From the NCBI GenBank assembly GCA_024434165.1, contig QMIW01000016.1, positions 1 through 56,141 of the forward strand: a stretch of 56,141 bases of DNA, read 5' to 3'. Source of the stretch: Chloroflexota bacterium. Lineage in GTDB: Bacteria; Chloroflexota; Anaerolineae; Anaerolineales; Villigracilaceae. Positions within the stretch are counted from its first letter, which is position 1. Every line of letters begins with the position of its first letter. The translations under genes were made by a program, and so were the position numbers. Below are positions 37,943-47,918 of this stretch, in pieces. Below the pieces are notes generated by a model, which was not told the origin of the DNA, made no database searches, and saw nothing but the letters and a program-made list of their open reading frames with translations.

Positions 37943-40429
37943 CTATTTCACTTCCACCAGCACGGCGCGCACCATGCGGCGGAAGGGATATTCACCCGTT
38001 TTGGGGTTGTAGCCTTCGCAAGTCAGTAACGTCACCCAATCCAGTTCTTCGTGCTTGAAAACTTTATCCACGCGGCTGGCGCCCCACAGCCAGGTGTTCT
38101 CGCGCACTTCGTAAACATACTTTTGCCCAAAGGCATGGATGTAGAAGCGGTCGCCATATTGAAGTTTCTTGATTTCGGCAAATATGCCGGGAGTGTTATC
38201 CGCATCCCACACGTGACCGGTCAGCACGGTGTTGCCCGCCCAGGTCGGGTAGGCGCTGCCTTCCAGCCAGCCGACCGAGTTCCCCAGCCAGGTCACATCC
38301 CAGCCGTCGGCTGATTTCGGCACGCCGACAATTGGCGCGTTGACTTTCAATGATGGGATTTCCAACATGAGGTCAGTGGCGGAGTAGGTTTTCTTAAGCG
38401 GTTGAGGCGGCAGAGCGGTGATGCGGTTCGGGGCGAAGCCGGTGTCTGGGAGTTGTGCTGCCCCGCCCGAGGTCCCGCTTGAACCGTCTCCGGTTCCTGT
38501 ACCTGTGCCTCCGCCCCCCGTCCCTCCACCCCCAGTCGTGCTGGAGGTCACGCTGAAGACCAGACCGTAATCCGTCAGCCCGGCGTAGAGTTCATCTCCG
38601 TTTGCGTTGAGGATCGAAGTGGTGCCGCAGACGAAGAGGCGGTAGAGCCCGGTGGGCAGCGGCTGACCACCGTTGACGCCCAGCGTGGCGGTGCGCGTGG
38701 CGGAATTGTAAGCGGCAGAATCAATCGAGATGGAGGTATCGCTACCGCTCACGCCGCCTGCACAGGTGAGGGTTTGAACGCCGTTGCCGCTGGCGCGCAC
38801 CAGGAGGTAGTTGGATGTGTTCTCGGCGGAGGCGGCGGTGACATCCTGATCGAAGGTGACCGTGAACTGGGCTGGACCCGTGGCGAGCGTTTGCCCCTGC
38901 AGGAGCGTGCCCGCGCCGGGCGCGGTGACGCTGCTCACGGTGGGCGGGTTGGCTGGTTGAAGTTCATACGCGCCGATGTCGCATCTGGCGGTGCCATTCT
39001 GATCTCCATCGGCGGGACGCGGAAAACCGCGCTGATCAGTGGAGGGGCATGAGCCGTTCGCGCCCGTATCCACGGCAGGTGAGCCCCAGAGTAAGGCGAA
39101 GGTTTGGGTGGGACCGCCGTTATCCGCCAGCGGACCCAGTTTCGGGTCGCCGCTGAATGAAGCGGGGCAGGAGCCATCCTCCACCAGATTGTTTGTGTTC
39201 GTGCCGATAGTGCCGTTATTATAACAATCCCTGACAATGGAATTGGCAATGATCGTGTTGGCGTAATTCAAAACGCCGCCGTCGTTGAAAATGCCCCCGC
39301 CGTTGATGACCGCGCTGTTGCCGGAGAAGGTGCCGTTGGTGACTGTCAGCGTGCCGAAGTTGGAAATGCCGCCGCCGTAGAGGGCGCTGTTGCCGGAGAA
39401 GGTGCTGTTCGTGACCGTCAGCACACTGGCGGTGATGATGCCGCCGCCGCTGAAGCCGGTGCTGTTGTCGGAGAAGGTGCTGTTGGTGATGGTGTGCGTC
39501 GAAAAGGCTTCGATGTAGATGCCCCCGCCGCCACCGGAGGCGTGGTTGCCGGAGAAGGTACTGCTCGTAACTGTCAACGCGCCTTCGGTGAAGATGCCCC
39601 CGCCGACGCCTGATGAGTCGTTGTCGGAGAAGGTGCTGTCCGTGACCGTCAGCGTACCAGCAAAGTTATTGGCGATGCCGCCGCCCTGGACGCTGTTGTT
39701 GCTGGAGAAGGTACTGTTCGTAACTATCAGCGTGCCTTCGTTGGCGATGCCCCCACCGTTGTAATTCACGTTGCTGTTGCCGGAGAAGGTGCTGTCCGTG
39801 ACCGTCAGTGTGCCGCGGTTGAAGATGCCGCCGCCGTTATCGCCCGCGCTGTTGCCGGAGAAAGTGCCGTTGGTGACTGTCAGCGTGCCGAAGTTGGAAA
39901 TGCCGCCGCCGTTGAGGGCGCTGTTGTTGGAGAAGGTGCTATTGGTAACCGTCAGCGTGCCGCCGTTGTTGAAGACGCCGCCGCCGAAGCCACTGCCCAT
40001 GTTCCCATTGGCAATGGTCAGGTTTTGCAAGGTGAGGGTCGCACTGTTATTCACCGACATTACCCGCACGCTGTTGTTCCCGCTGATAGTGATGCTTTGC
40101 CCCGAGCCGTCAATCGTCAGCGCGCCCTGCCCGGAGACGATGTTGGGAAGCGTCGAGCCGAGGGTAATTATCCCGCTCACGCTGAAGGTGATGGTGTCGT
40201 CGGCGCCGCTGCCTGCGCCGCAGTCGCCGTTGTAGGCGGCATCATTGTTCGCGGCAAGGATCGCTTCGCGCAGGGTGCAGAAGGCGTCGTCGGTGGTGTT
40301 ATCCGCCAGCGAGTTGACGACATAGCCCGCGGCATAGGCTGGCGGCGGCGTTTGCCCCGCCAAAAGAATGGAAACAAGAAGGAGAGCGGACAAGAGGCGG
40401 TAGAATTTCCTGACCATTTGAGCCTCCAT
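37943..40429 (-). CDS. Beta-helix surface protein fused to a sortase domain
   Basis: An 828-residue protein. Residues 5-33 are a signal peptide (LSALLLVSILLAG, then PPPAYA). The CTLREAILAANND segment is the CSLREA-type motif at the head of repetitive surface proteins. Residues ~130-400 are tandem ~25-residue repeats of the form GGGIxNxGTLTVTxSTFSGNSA, a right-handed parallel beta-helix. A CalX/SbsA-like fibre domain and a Gly/Thr-rich linker follow, ending at QLPDTGFAPN (LPxTG-like, ~660-664). From ~680 on is a sortase domain with His in LTGHVWDAD, Cys804 in TLLTCEGY and the catalytic Arg in RRMVRAVL. Adhesin-plus-sortase in one chain is unusual. Confidence 0.9.
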   Translation of the reverse strand: MEAQMVRKFYRLLSALLLVSILLAGQTPPPAYAAGYVVNSLADNTTDDAFCTLREAILAANNDAAYNGDCGAGSGADDTITFSVSGIITLGSTLPNIVSGQGALTIDGSGQSITISGNNSVRVMSVNNSATLTLQNLTIANGNMGSGFGGGVFNNGGTLTVTNSTFSNNSALNGGGISNFGTLTVTNGTFSGNSAGDNGGGIFNRGTLTVTDSTFSGNSNVNYNGGGIANEGTLIVTNSTFSSNNSVQGGGIANNFAGTLTVTDSTFSDNDSSGVGGGIFTEGALTVTSSTFSGNHASGGGGGIYIEAFSTHTITNSTFSDNSTGFSGGGIITASVLTVTNSTFSGNSALYGGGISNFGTLTVTNGTFSGNSAVINGGGIFNDGGVLNYANTIIANSIVRDCYNNGTIGTNTNNLVEDGSCPASFSGDPKLGPLADNGGPTQTFALLWGSPAVDTGANGSCPSTDQRGFPRPADGDQNGTARCDIGAYELQPANPPTVSSVTAPGAGTLLQGQTLATGPAQFTVTFDQDVTAASAENTSNYLLVRASGNGVQTLTCAGGVSGSDTSISIDSAAYNSATRTATLGVNGGQPLPTGLYRLFVCGTTSILNANGDELYAGLTDYGLVFSVTSSTTGGGGTGGGGTGTGTGDGSSGTSGGAAQLPDTGFAPNRITALPPQPLKKTYSATDLMLEIPSLKVNAPIVGVPKSADGWDVTWLGNSVGWLEGSAYPTWAGNTVLTGHVWDADNTPGIFAEIKKLQYGDRFYIHAFGQKYVYEVRENTWLWGASRVDKVFKHEELDWVTLLTCEGYNPKTGEYPFRRMVRAVLVEVK

Positions 40430-42945: not shown

Positions 42946-43326
42946 TCAATCGCCGTTTTCCTTCAATATGTCAATGTAATTTAAATGCCAGACGGCTGTC
43001 TCGAGTAGAACGCGAATTTCGCAAATTTCACGGGTTATCTTTTCATAATCCGATTTCTCAAGATAATCCAGCCTGGAGGCAAGAAAAAACAGGGCATCCA
43101 GTTTGTGCGCGGAGGCAATCGCGGGCAGCAACAACGACTTAAACACTGCCCTATCCCCCAAAACCGGACCTACGGCAAGGTTGACGGTCATGAATACCGC
43201 AACTTCCTGAATTTTCTCCGCAAGCACATCGGCTTCAGGATTTGAAAATTTCATTACGGCTTTATAAACGTCCACCGCGAGCTGCCGCGCTCTTTCCTTT
43301 GCTCTTTCATAACTAAAATCCCACAT
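42946..43326 (-). CDS. Four-helix bundle protein (23S rRNA intervening-sequence type)
   Basis: A 126-residue, almost entirely helical protein starting MWDFSYERAKERARQLAVDVY after GGAGG (5 nt). Helices with EKIQEVAVFMTVNLAVG, FLASRLDYLEKSDYEKI and REICEIRVLLETAVWHLNYI give the four-helix bundle fold of the TIGR02436 (S23/IVS) family. Proteins of this family are often encoded in 23S rRNA intervening sequences or near mobile DNA; their function is poorly known. The preceding gap (42879-42945) contains GTGATCAGTAATCAGTGATC filler. Family membership is moderately sure; no function can be given. Confidence 0.65.
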   Translation of the reverse strand: MWDFSYERAKERARQLAVDVYKAVMKFSNPEADVLAEKIQEVAVFMTVNLAVGPVLGDRAVFKSLLLPAIASAHKLDALFFLASRLDYLEKSDYEKITREICEIRVLLETAVWHLNYIDILKENGD

Positions 43327-43481
43327 TATGTCCTCCTGGTTGCGTTGTCCCAAATGCGTGCCTGATTGTATCAGAATACCATCCCCTGTGAATGGAATTT
43401 TGTCATCGTTTCATGGCATGGTCAAAGGCGGGATTTTTATGCGAATACCCCGAACGAACAAACGGCGCGGGAACCGAAGGT

Positions 43482-46055
43482 TTACTTTATCGTCACCTGA
43501 ATCACCGCCGTATCCACCGCCTGGTCGCTGCGAACCACGATCAATTGCACGGCATATAAACCGCCCAACCCGGTCGTATCCCATTCCGCCAACAGACCGC
43601 CCTCCACGGGCGTGAAGTTATCGGATCCCAGTTGAATCCACTCCTGCGGGTTCAATCCCCTGCCGACCTGCACGCGATAATACAAAAAGTCCGCGCCCGC
43701 CGCCGTGCCCATGATGAGCACGCTGCCGCTCACATCTGCGAACAACTGCGGCGACGTGATATTGGCATACGGGTTGACCGGCGGCGCCTGGATGGCGTCG
43801 TACGTTGTCGGCGGGATGGGCACACCCGCGCTCGATGCCCACTCGCGCGCCTCTTCGGGGACGAGCATGAACACGCGGTTGTCAATCAGTTCGGGCGGCG
43901 TAAAGACCGTTGCAAGCAAGCCCGTCTCGCGGTTGATCGCAAACTCGCGGAACAGCGTATCGGCATGGGTCGGTTCGCTGCCGTTCAAAAAGACTTCCGT
44001 CACCAAATTCGGGCATTCCTTCGTCGGCAGCATGCCCGAAGGATCGCAGACCGTCATCGGCGTAATGCCCTGCGGCGCAGACCAGCCGTCGGCGGGTTTA
44101 CCCGCAGAAGCGGTCTGCATCAGTGCATTCCACAACACCGCCGGAAAACGTGGAGTTACCCCCCTCGGTCCCCCTTGAAGGGGGGAAGAAAGAGAGGGGT
44201 CGCGCGCGCCCGTCCATACCGCAACCGAAACGTGCGGCGTGTACCCAACCACCCACGCATCCTTTCCATCAAAGGTCTGACCGGGCTTCACGCCGGCGGG
44301 TCTGCCGATTTCGAGCACATTCTGCCTGCCCCACGTATCCCAGCGGGCGGGCTCATCGCTCAATACATGCGTCATCAGATACGCCATTGCAGGCGTCACC
44401 ACCGTCTGCGCCTGCGGCAGGGACCAATCGAGCAGGATGCTGCGGTCTGCGCCTTCCACGCGCAGCGCCGTTGCGGGCGTGAATTCGTCGTTCACATATT
44501 GACCGAAATACACGCCCTGCACGCCGAACACGCCGTACGCGCCCGCCAGTTCGAGCATCGTCGCATCGGCATTCACATCCAGCCCAAACGACGCTGCGAT
44601 CTTCGTCACATTCTCGATTCCCATCTGCGCTCTCAATCTCGCCGCTGGCGCCTGGTAATCGTTCGCCAGCGCGATTCGCAAACGCATCGCGCCGTGATAT
44701 TCGCCGTCGAGGTTGTGGATGGACTGGTCCGAGGGAATATCGCACGTCAGCGAGGCGGGACTCAACCCGCGCGTGAATCCCGTCAAATAGACGAACGCAT
44801 CGAGGCTGGACCCGGGGCTGTGTGCGCTGACCAGGGGCGTTTCCACGCCTTGAATGGTCTCGCCCACCATCGCCAGCACCTGTCCTGTCTTCGGGTCGAG
44901 GATGACTGCGCTGGCGGATGAATCCGGGAAGGTCACACCGGGCGGCAGAGACGGAAGCAGGCGCGCCGCATCGCAATCTTTCCCGGGTTCGGGCAAACCC
45001 GCCAGGCGCGAAGCGTAAACTTCCGTCACGCAGGACGCCTGCTTTTGCAGTTCGTAATCCAGCGTGGAGATGACGATCATCCCGCCGCGTTCGAGCCGTT
45101 CGCGCGGAATCTGCGAGTCAATTTGGGCGAGGAGAAGGTTCAGGAAGGCGGGAGCAACTGTCGGCGGGGCTGGAGGCGCGGCTGCGAAGGCAGGAGTCTC
45201 TGCCAGCGCTCGAGAGGCTTCCTCGCTGGAGACCAGTCCGAGGTCGTTCATCACATACAGCACTTCGCGCCCGCGCTGGATGGCGACCTGCGGGGCGTCG
45301 AGCGGGTTGAGCGCGGGCGTCTCGCTCACCGCCGCAAGGATGGCGGATTCGGCGAGGGTGAGCGCATCGGCAGATTTGCCGAAATACAATTGCGCGGCGG
45401 CTTCGACCCCGTAGGCATGATTGCCAAAGTTCGCGCTGTTGAGATACCACTCCATGATTTGCGTCCGCCCGAACTGCGCGGTGATCTGCGCGGCAAGCAG
45501 CCGCTCGCGGATGGCGCGCGTGAGGGAGTGCGGCTCGTCGTAGAGCAGGAGGTCGTCCACGAGTTTTTGCGCGATGGTGGGGTGAAGGTTCGGGTTGTCC
45601 AAGCCTTCGAGCGAGTAGCCGGAATGACGTTCGAATTGCGGGTCGGCGGCGGCGATGATCGCTTCGACCAGTTCTTCAGGAAGGTGTTGTGCATTCTGTT
45701 CGCTGATGGGAATATAGCGTCGCGGCGCTTCGTCCGGCGCGAAGGTGGCGAGCAGCTGCAAGCCCGTGCGGTCATAGACGCGCGTGGGCTGGAGGAGCAA
45801 TCCATCGGGAGGGTTCAGGAGGATCGGGAGAATCTGTGTGGAGGGCAGGTCGCGGGTCACGCCGGCGTAGGCGAACGCGCCGAGGATGATGACCACACCC
45901 AGCATGAGCGATAAAACCAGTCCGCTGCTGAGAAGCACACCGCGCAGGCGGCTCGCGCCCCTGTTCTGCCGGTCGAGCCTGCGCTCACGTCGCGCTCGAA
46001 GAACACGTGCACCGCGCTGTGGATGCAGCACTGGTGTGGGAAGGGTGGAGGGCAT
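43482..46055 (-). CDS. Class A penicillin-binding protein with all catalytic motifs lost
   Basis: An 857-residue protein from the ATG at 46055 (MPSTLPTPVLHPQRG); an extension to 46283 overlaps the opposite promoter region. A cytoplasmic basic tail and one membrane span (~residues 35-60) precede a GT51 domain: the EDxxFxxHxG motif is ADPQFERHSG (~136), so the catalytic Glu is Ala; STITQQ is PTIAQK. In the transpeptidase domain SxxK is SSLD (~416), SxN is replaced by DYQ (~466) and KTG by KPG (~588). Folding segments are kept (QIMEWYLNSANFG, KDAWVVGYTPHVSVAVW). It is probably a non-catalytic scaffold or regulator. Residues ~618-632 derive from an inserted palindrome. Confidence 0.85.
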   Translation of the reverse strand: MPSTLPTPVLHPQRGARVLRARRERRLDRQNRGASRLRGVLLSSGLVLSLMLGVVIILGAFAYAGVTRDLPSTQILPILLNPPDGLLLQPTRVYDRTGLQLLATFAPDEAPRRYIPISEQNAQHLPEELVEAIIAAADPQFERHSGYSLEGLDNPNLHPTIAQKLVDDLLLYDEPHSLTRAIRERLLAAQITAQFGRTQIMEWYLNSANFGNHAYGVEAAAQLYFGKSADALTLAESAILAAVSETPALNPLDAPQVAIQRGREVLYVMNDLGLVSSEEASRALAETPAFAAAPPAPPTVAPAFLNLLLAQIDSQIPRERLERGGMIVISTLDYELQKQASCVTEVYASRLAGLPEPGKDCDAARLLPSLPPGVTFPDSSASAVILDPKTGQVLAMVGETIQGVETPLVSAHSPGSSLDAFVYLTGFTRGLSPASLTCDIPSDQSIHNLDGEYHGAMRLRIALANDYQAPAARLRAQMGIENVTKIAASFGLDVNADATMLELAGAYGVFGVQGVYFGQYVNDEFTPATALRVEGADRSILLDWSLPQAQTVVTPAMAYLMTHVLSDEPARWDTWGRQNVLEIGRPAGVKPGQTFDGKDAWVVGYTPHVSVAVWTGARDPSLSSPLQGGPRGVTPRFPAVLWNALMQTASAGKPADGWSAPQGITPMTVCDPSGMLPTKECPNLVTEVFLNGSEPTHADTLFREFAINRETGLLATVFTPPELIDNRVFMLVPEEAREWASSAGVPIPPTTYDAIQAPPVNPYANITSPQLFADVSGSVLIMGTAAGADFLYYRVQVGRGLNPQEWIQLGSDNFTPVEGGLLAEWDTTGLGGLYAVQLIVVRSDQAVDTAVIQVTIK
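44158..44200. repeat. GC-rich palindrome inserted in frame in the PBP gene
   Basis: ACCCCCCT … CCCCCTTGAAGGGGG … GAGAGGGGT, 43 nt, coding in reverse for [17 protein letters not shown]. The amino-acid text closely matches the insert of acnA (SSPLQGG-x-RGV), so the same element landed in two genes in the same frame and direction. Confidence 0.82.
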
Positions 46056-46506: not shown

Positions 46507-47829
46507 TCACTCCCCCAGCAAATCCGCCAAAAAACCAAACAACCCGCCCTGTTCTTCCTCCTCCTTCTCCGGCAGGTCGCTGGCGACGATGCCGCTCTGA
46601 CCGTTGATGAGGACAAGGTGTTCGCGCCCGCCGAAGGGCAGTTCGGTCATCCACACGGGGAGGAGGACGAGTTTGAAGGACTCGACCATCAGTCCCGCCG
46701 AGGAGGCGCGGACAAGGGTGATACCGTTCAACAGATGCGGCATCCGCCGTTTGATGTCCTTGAAAGCCTGACTGCGCGCGTCGAGCGAGGCATCCGCCAT
46801 GGGAATGTCGTACACTTCCGCGAGCCAGCTGGCGAGGTAGCGCGGGTCGTACGGTTTGAGCGCGGAAAGCTCAAAGGTGGGAATCAACTTCATGAAAACG
46901 CCGGACAGCTTTCGGGAAGCGGGAAGCGGCAGGTCGTTCACCATTACGGGGTACTTGTCGTTGATCCGCACCACTTTGCGCTCGCGTTCGCCGGTCAACA
47001 GATTCTGTTCGTATTGCACCATCTCGCCGGTGTAATCAATTCCGCCGCCGATGTCGAAGGTCCACATGGGCAGGTACAAGCCGCGCGGCAGGTCCACCTT
47101 CTTTTCGGGCGTGATGCCGCTGCTCTCCACCCAGTGGATGAGCAGGCGTGTGGCTTGTTTCTGGTCGAAAGCGTGCGGCAGGATGGAGTCGGGCGCGAGC
47201 AGGTCTTTCGAGTTTTCGAGGTTGACCACGTGCGGCGAATCGCAATAGGCACAGTTGGCGGAGATCTGCCTGGGCGGCAAAATGAATTCCGCGCCGCAGC
47301 CGTTGCAATGAAATGCCTGCTCTTGCAGGGGCTTTCCGTGTCCCTTCATCGTCGCCATTGCAACGATGAAATCCTTTTCGGTTTCATTCGTTGCGCCCAG
47401 CCCAAGCGCGTGCTGGCGCGTGCAGTAATCGCATACCAGTGAAGAGCCATCCGGCGAGAACGCCATGCGCCCGCCGCATTTGGGGCACATGAAGCGGTCT
47501 GCCTGTGCCTGGCGCAATCCTTCCGGCGCGGGGGGGAGTTGATCCGGGTTGATGACGTCGCCGGCTTTGAGTTTGCCATTGAGGATCGCCAGCGCACGGC
47601 GCGCGCGCGCATGATGCAGATCGTGCGCCAGGCAGTTTTCCAATGCCTTGCGTTTTTCATCGGGGTCGTCCAGCACTTCGCCCATCCAGAACCACGCTTC
47701 GGCAAGCACATCGTGCGAACCCGCCATGTAAATCGCGCGGTCGAGGTAGCGGCGGGCGGTATCCTTGCTGCCGGACTTGGCTTCGATAATTCCCGTGCGG
47801 AGGAGTTCTTTTGAATAATCGCTGCTCAT
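46507..47829 (-). CDS. TPR and zinc-ribbon protein, unknown function
   Basis: About 440 residues. The ATG at 47829 (MSSDYSKELLRTG) is taken as start; a GTG four codons upstream is possible. Residues 5-90 are TPR-like helices (LLRTGIIEAKSGSKDTARRY, AEAWFWMGEVLDDPDEKRKAL). Two zinc ribbons follow: MCPKCGGRMAF…CDYCTRQ (~117-143) and FHCNGCGAEF…CAYCDSP (~180-205). The rest is a beta-rich domain (LPRGLYLPMWTFDIGG, LPVWMTELPFGGREHLVLIN) as in the 'DUF…zinc ribbon' proteins with a permease-like companion domain. The C-terminus is acidic (EKEEEEQGG). Role unknown; it is followed upstream by folP on the same strand. Confidence 0.7.
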   Translation of the reverse strand: MSSDYSKELLRTGIIEAKSGSKDTARRYLDRAIYMAGSHDVLAEAWFWMGEVLDDPDEKRKALENCLAHDLHHARARRALAILNGKLKAGDVINPDQLPPAPEGLRQAQADRFMCPKCGGRMAFSPDGSSLVCDYCTRQHALGLGATNETEKDFIVAMATMKGHGKPLQEQAFHCNGCGAEFILPPRQISANCAYCDSPHVVNLENSKDLLAPDSILPHAFDQKQATRLLIHWVESSGITPEKKVDLPRGLYLPMWTFDIGGGIDYTGEMVQYEQNLLTGERERKVVRINDKYPVMVNDLPLPASRKLSGVFMKLIPTFELSALKPYDPRYLASWLAEVYDIPMADASLDARSQAFKDIKRRMPHLLNGITLVRASSAGLMVESFKLVLLPVWMTELPFGGREHLVLINGQSGIVASDLPEKEEEEQGGLFGFLADLLGE

Positions 47830-47918
47830 ATCTTCAATCACGGATGAATGCCGATGAAACGGGTTTGCTCATCGAATCATCCTGTTTACCTCGTACCCGA
47901 ATGGGTATCTCCGGTGAA

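Follow-up and report, generated by a model that had tools for sequence, protein, structure and literature searches.

The window analyzed here, a stretch of 56,141 nucleotides from a Chloroflexota bacterium, carries on its minus strand an open reading frame (P0001) of 857 codons plus a stop at positions 43482-46055. An earlier note on this DNA had read the frame as a class A penicillin-binding protein (PBP) that retains the fold of both domains and has lost every catalytic motif; the frame is real and its strand is minus. An alternative GTG start, located 228 nt upstream of the ATG, would give a protein of 933 amino acids. In a 42-row alignment that includes the M1 of this protein, M1 is conserved almost throughout (at least 90%), which makes the ATG at 46055 the likely start. 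The product begins with a basic N-terminal stretch and a single membrane helix; these are followed by a GT51 glycosyltransferase (GT) domain, a linker, a transpeptidase (TP) domain, a post-transpeptidase tail and an Ig-like C-terminal domain. The features, all on the minus strand, are as follows.

43482..46055, minus: pseudo class A PBP gene, 857 amino acids, P0001 (reading frame, Pfam, alignment)
45852..45947, minus: single N-terminal membrane helix, about residues 37-68 (hydropathy and predicted model)
45246..45788, minus: dead GT51 glycosyltransferase domain, residues 90-270, limits set by us (Pfam Transgly, fold match)
45645..45647, minus: codon 137, Ala replacing the catalytic Glu of EDxxF, in ADPQFERHSG (motif alignment)
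45564..45581, minus: PTIAQK replacing STITQQ, residues 159-164 (motif alignment)
44106..44927, minus: dead transpeptidase domain, residues 377-650, limits set by us (Pfam, and fold match to residue 700)
44799..44810, minus: SSLD replacing SxxK, residues 416-419, Ser kept and Lys changed to Asp (motif alignment)
44652..44660, minus: DYQ replacing SxN, residues 466-468 (motif alignment)
44280..44288, minus: KPG replacing KTG, residues 590-592 (motif alignment)
43770..44105, minus: post-transpeptidase tail, residues 651-762, with Cys670 and Cys681 (omega 0.093, conservation of the Cys pair)
43485..43769, minus: C-terminal Ig-like beta domain, residues 763-857 (strands in the model, Big_7 in relatives, omega 0.104)

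The protein is a class A PBP by descent, with a single N-terminal anchor and the GT51 and transpeptidase domains in the expected order, both over their Pfam cut-offs. Pfam Transgly matches residues 122-269 with 102.9 bits (cut-off 27; 1.8e-29) and Pfam Transpeptidase matches residues 382-495 with 28.1 bits (cut-off 22.1; 1.5e-6). Hydropathy windows of 19 residues starting at positions 37-50 exceed 1.6, and the corresponding helix of the model spans residues 17-67. An AlphaFold2 model built from the 42-row alignment has a mean pLDDT of 87 and a pTM of 0.74. Its residues 76-700 align with PBP1A of H. influenzae (5u2g) with a Z of 34.9 over 516 residues and an rmsd of 6.8, and the comparison with chlamydial PBP1A (7u4h) gives a Z of 33.6 over 382 residues at 2.8 A; the top ranks of a Foldseek search are class A PBPs too. 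Preservation of both folds, as the earlier note had it, is therefore borne out by Pfam and by the predicted model. The Ig-like assignment is based on the beta strands of the model and on Pfam Big_7 matches at the same end of the two active orthologs tested. Domain order, membrane anchor and predicted fold are like those of PBP1A-type class A PBPs (TIGR02074 of NCBIfam); however, the protein reaches 266.8 bits against the curated 508.75, below the cut-off, and lacks key residues in both sites. A palindromic GC-rich small element with the core CCCCCTTCAAGGGGG lies inside the gene (window 44160-44190) and leaves the frame unbroken. It sits around the low-confidence loop 622-630, where the extra residues are missing in the eight relatives compared.

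The motif readings listed above (Ala137, PTIAQK, SSLD, DYQ, KPG) agree with those first reported. In the glycosyltransferase domain of this copy, Ala137 is accompanied by Ala162, Ala181 in place of the Lys of RKxxE, and Asp167 in place of the Lys of QQxxKN. The claim that every catalytic motif is lost holds in that each motif is altered, but not for every residue, as E184 (the second GT Glu, in RKxxE), S416, K590 and G592 are still present. The protein lacks the full residue set of a bifunctional class A enzyme (Glu of EDxxF, STITQQ and RKxxE; SxxK, SxN and KTG). Substitute motifs were sought throughout the protein sequence and none is in the right place: no E[DE]xxF occurs anywhere, the sole other SxxK is SAGK at 650, and the sole KTG (389) lies close to where the transpeptidase domain begins. 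A different placement of the catalytic motifs, which would have overturned the first reading, was thus discarded.

The same positions were compared across orthologs. Those resembling the window's copy (dead rows) come from ten families (f1, f2, f5, f6, f7, f8, f9, f12, f13 and f14, with f7 represented by the partial L131 alone), and the active set holds 18 orthologs from f3, f4, f10, f11, f15 and other Anaerolineae. After identical or contained sequences had been taken out, 129 of the 139 dead rows were left; the 18 active rows stayed unthinned (L080 and L089 are 97% alike). A first motif table excludes rows under 740 amino acids (L071, L075, L077, L111, L131-L133 and short distant matches). 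The active orthologs (among them L119-L121, L123-L126, L078-L081, L083, L087-L089) share the architecture and the Cys pair of the tail, with 36-43% identity, and both of those scanned also have the Ig-like C-terminal domain; they differ in that their catalytic residues are intact in all 18 rows. The Lys of SxxK (position 419) is found in 0/129 distinct dead orthologs versus 18/18 active rows, and the GT Glu (position 137) in none of the 128 readable dead rows (the 129th ends before the site) versus 18/18, in sets that were assigned by family after the motif tables were known, for which a tree without motif columns is the independent check. Loss of the two residues across the orthologs is far beyond chance. 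Lys167 is absent in 128/128 readable dead rows and present in 18/18 active rows, and T162 and K181 are kept in only 4/129 and 1/129 dead rows. A synthase that is still active with unusual residues would draw on E184, Ser416 and Lys590, kept in 90, 91 and 111 of the 129 dead rows, respectively; set against the loss of the SxxK Lys, the first GT Glu and Lys167 wherever they can be read, and against the counts for T162 and K181, such an enzyme is hardly credible.

A 98-row tree calculated with the motif columns removed joins all 78 dead rows, from nine families, in one clade with an SH-aLRT of 100. This clade is nested among the active orthologs and f5 branches first; the order of the inner branches is uncertain, since the tree was built quickly and contains long branches (L268, L269, L128/L130). 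L131 (f7), unreadable at the GT sites, was left out, and L180, identical to L064, is counted among the 78. The dead clade had a support of 99 in an earlier 62-row tree with 30 dead rows. The simplest history suggested by these sequences is a single double inactivation that predates the split of the dead families and was then passed down within the order.

Uninterrupted near-full-length matches, one per genome, were found in 29 of the 36 genomes of the same genus. Copies are broken or fragmentary in five (G002, G006, G015, G017, G019), and no match was found in the remaining two, G014 (71% complete) and G025 (98% complete). In an order-wide survey of 201 genomes, 176 gave a match at 1e-60, the weakest of which may be other PBPs, and 25 gave none. 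Given this last number and the absence from the 98%-complete G025, the gene is dispensable in places. Internal stops occur, among the matches listed, in G015, G188, G195 and G208; we read the breaks of G017 as probable sequencing error, because its neighbour genes also give shortened reading frames.

A neutral pseudogene is expected to have an omega near 1. For 50 orthologs in and near the genus, the median pairwise omega is 0.168 (range 0.08-0.32; 641 pairs with dS 0.1-1.5), by Nei-Gojobori counting rather than a codon model. Of 210 pairs from 21 matched genomes, 111 could be used; in these, omega is 0.177 for the dead gene versus 0.139 for the active class A paralog (20 of the active paralogs are near full length and one is partial). 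The broken, stop-containing and missing copies are what a decaying pseudogene would leave, but with uninterrupted frames in most genomes of the genus, breaks in G017 that look technical and omega values well below 1, we reject decay for the genus and consider it very improbable overall. The dN/dS check proposed in the earlier note thus came out far from neutrality, and its view of a pseudoenzyme kept by selection is upheld: motif loss is combined with a retained predicted fold and purifying selection (for orthologs in and near the genus, omega is about 0.17), the dead rows group in a single clade that spans nine families, and the genome also has an active class A paralog.

By region (95 pairs), omega is 0.153 in the N-terminus, 0.153 in the GT domain, 0.213 in the linker, 0.131 in the TP domain, 0.093 in the tail and 0.104 in the Ig-like domain. 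Purifying selection therefore acts on both dead domains and is strongest on the C-terminal tail, among orthologs in and near the genus. Family-weighted column conservation, calculated with L131 and gaps excluded, separates the regions in the same comparison of dead and active rows. Mean conservation is 0.53 versus 0.78 in the GT domain and 0.52 versus 0.77 in the TP domain, compared with 0.62 versus 0.66 in the tail and 0.56 versus 0.63 in the Ig-like domain. Columns with a conservation of at least 0.9 number 16 of 176 in the dead rows versus 83 in the active ones (GT), 24 of 265 versus 117 (TP), 30 of 111 versus 32 (tail) and 12 of 95 versus 14 (Ig-like). Cys670 and Cys681 are present in 129/129 dead and 18/18 active rows. 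The old GT and TP domains are thus under weaker constraint in the dead clade, where their conservation falls clearly short of that in the active rows. The pattern points to the C-terminal module and the structural core of the TP domain as the parts that would do the work, rather than the GT cleft.

A sensor, the second role suggested in the earlier note, would use the old GT or TP pocket to bind lipid II, stem peptide or a beta-lactam without turnover and report to partners. Position 416 is Ser or Thr in 121/129 dead rows, Lys590 is widely kept and, among orthologs in and near the genus, the replacement residues hardly vary, all of which agree with a pocket still in use. The GT side tells against it: position 137 takes 13 residue types in the dead rows, and GT motifs 1 and 2 lie about 10 residues closer together, with a spacing of 23-24 residues in 110/129 dead rows versus 34-35 in 16/18 active ones (four dead rows have 35). 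We take Lys167, lost from the dead rows, to be the equivalent, by motif, of Lys140 of S. aureus MGT. In simulations, Lys140 of MGT forms a salt bridge with the phosphate group of moenomycin in the donor site (PMC6053601). Loss of this presumed diphosphate-contacting Lys, together with the shorter GT stretch, makes a lipid II sensor less likely, and we regard a sensor of any of these kinds as unlikely.

New ligand binding or chemistry in the TP pocket, around Ser416, Asp419, His412, Asp466 and Lys590, was the other pocket-based possibility. Glu405, Thr406, His412, Asp419, Asp466 and Gln593 are 96-100% fixed, unlike in the active relatives, across the 50 rows in and near the genus. Most of these residues, however, are not common to the other families, where position 419 is Thr, Ala, Leu or others. 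Asp466 is found in 112/129 dead rows and together with Lys590 in 107/129; the two residues are found again in most families, the exceptions being f2, f5 (for the most part) and f12, which lacks Lys590. A repurposed pocket is accordingly doubtful as the role of the family.

The earlier note had linked the dead PBP to the reduced or absent peptidoglycan of many Chloroflexota. The host genome, 98% complete, contains one class A PBP with intact motifs (on C139), which is the second, active PBP gene that note had proposed to look for, and three class B PBPs with SxxK, SxN and KTG readable in each, as well as three SEDS proteins and five Mur ligase matches. Three Mur ligase matches and a class B PBP accompany one SEDS gene on C120, a class B PBP accompanies another on C18, and the third, on C73, encodes a fusion to a dead transpeptidase. 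As an active class A PBP, class B PBPs, SEDS proteins and Mur ligases are all found, peptidoglycan synthesis looks present in this genome, and the dead copy would therefore be an extra rather than a relic of wall loss. Reduced peptidoglycan was accordingly set aside as its reason in this host.

The third SEDS protein (G000:C73:66131-68323; L009, L189) is fused to a class B PBP module, consisting of the PBP dimerisation domain and the start of the transpeptidase domain, without SxxK. The motif is missing in 47/47 rows readable at the site, own copy included, from 50 loci taken. The fusion is predicted to be a second dead transpeptidase in the lineage, with a distribution that appears to follow the pseudo-PBP only in part. 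A partnership of the two proteins was considered because their distributions at first appeared shared, but this is broken in several lineages of the 201-genome survey. Genomes G093, G115 and G123 of f13 have no pseudo-PBP match and a SEDS match of about 1e-145 to 1e-148, as strong as that of fused proteins, and G067, G075 and G092 of f8 and f12 have a pseudo-PBP match and no SEDS-fusion match at 1e-60, these cases coming from automated matches and a cut-off that also drops weak true matches. Since the two distributions fail to coincide in several f13, f8 and f12 genomes, no partnership is claimed.

The explanation that we favor, and consider probable, is that the protein is a non-catalytic, membrane-anchored scaffold or allosteric partner in the peptidoglycan-synthesis machinery that arose from one double loss. 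A class A PBP lost both its GT and TP active sites once, early in this Chloroflexota order, and its product has since been retained as a membrane-anchored, probably non-catalytic PBP; the predicted fold, the double loss, its single origin, the wide retention and the purifying selection are what the sequences show, and the scaffold or partner role is inferred from them. It may hold or regulate other synthases or the wall through the TP body, the C-terminal tail and the Ig-like domain, with binding itself presumably through the tail and the Ig-like domain. The old GT site would neither make nor sense lipid II, and in the old TP site a putative Asp466-Lys590 salt bridge may keep the pocket closed or in shape. 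A scaffold, the first role named in the earlier note, fits best because the strongest constraint falls on the non-catalytic tail.

Retention of a dead peptidoglycan enzyme as a regulator is known from degenerate LytM factors of the EnvC/NlpD type, which have a hydrolase fold, regulate amidases and belong to an unrelated family. Closer to PBPs, catalytically inactive PBP 2B S309A of B. subtilis still supports division (PMC5656894) and PBP3 of C. difficile promotes septum synthesis without its TPase activity (PMC12539705). In these cases it is presence and not catalysis that counts, as proposed for the pseudo-PBP; they differ in being class B proteins with an active-site Ser that were inactivated in the laboratory, whereas the pseudo-PBP is class A and naturally dead. 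Searches of an open-access literature collection, incomplete in its coverage, turned up neither a description of a pseudo or inactive class A PBP nor any work on the PBPs of these Chloroflexota, so that the protein is known by descent and its doubly inactive variant is apparently undescribed.

The pseudo-PBP amounts to a natural double mutant of a class A PBP, kept across nine or ten families and, in the host genome, beside intact PBPs. As its non-catalytic tail is as conserved as in active relatives, it would show which part of the protein does the non-catalytic job, and this job of a class A PBP becomes directly testable. We give about even weight to the broader view that this order-wide, doubly dead family is a dedicated non-catalytic component of the wall machinery, whose job, done by body and tail, is separable from both activities. 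Wall-building with dead PBPs may be a habit of the lineage, since the same bacteria carry the third SEDS protein fused to a dead transpeptidase.

FolP, a 444-residue zinc-ribbon-like protein, a phosphofructokinase and an MBL-fold protein, which are the neighbours of the gene, recur in and near the genus alone; at 20 loci taken from other families, whose flanks reach about 3 kb at most, none of them was found. Housekeeping-like and not recovered at those loci, they were rejected as partners. The 444-residue protein (window 46507-47841, minus) shows a weak zinc-ribbon match under the Pfam cut-off and is encoded upstream of the pseudo-PBP on the same strand; in several relatives (such as L013, L027, L028, L034, L040, L055) no more than about 50 bases separate its end from the pseudo-PBP frame, and in others it lies 1-3 kb away. 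On the other side, a small protein of the 23S rRNA-intervening-sequence type (PF05635; window 42946-43353, minus) adjoins the pseudo-PBP, and a related protein turned up at this position only in L016 and in the one genome of L075/L132. Furthermore, window 37943-40429 (minus) encodes an 828-residue repeat protein with a weak Chlam_PMP repeat match and a C-terminal sortase domain.
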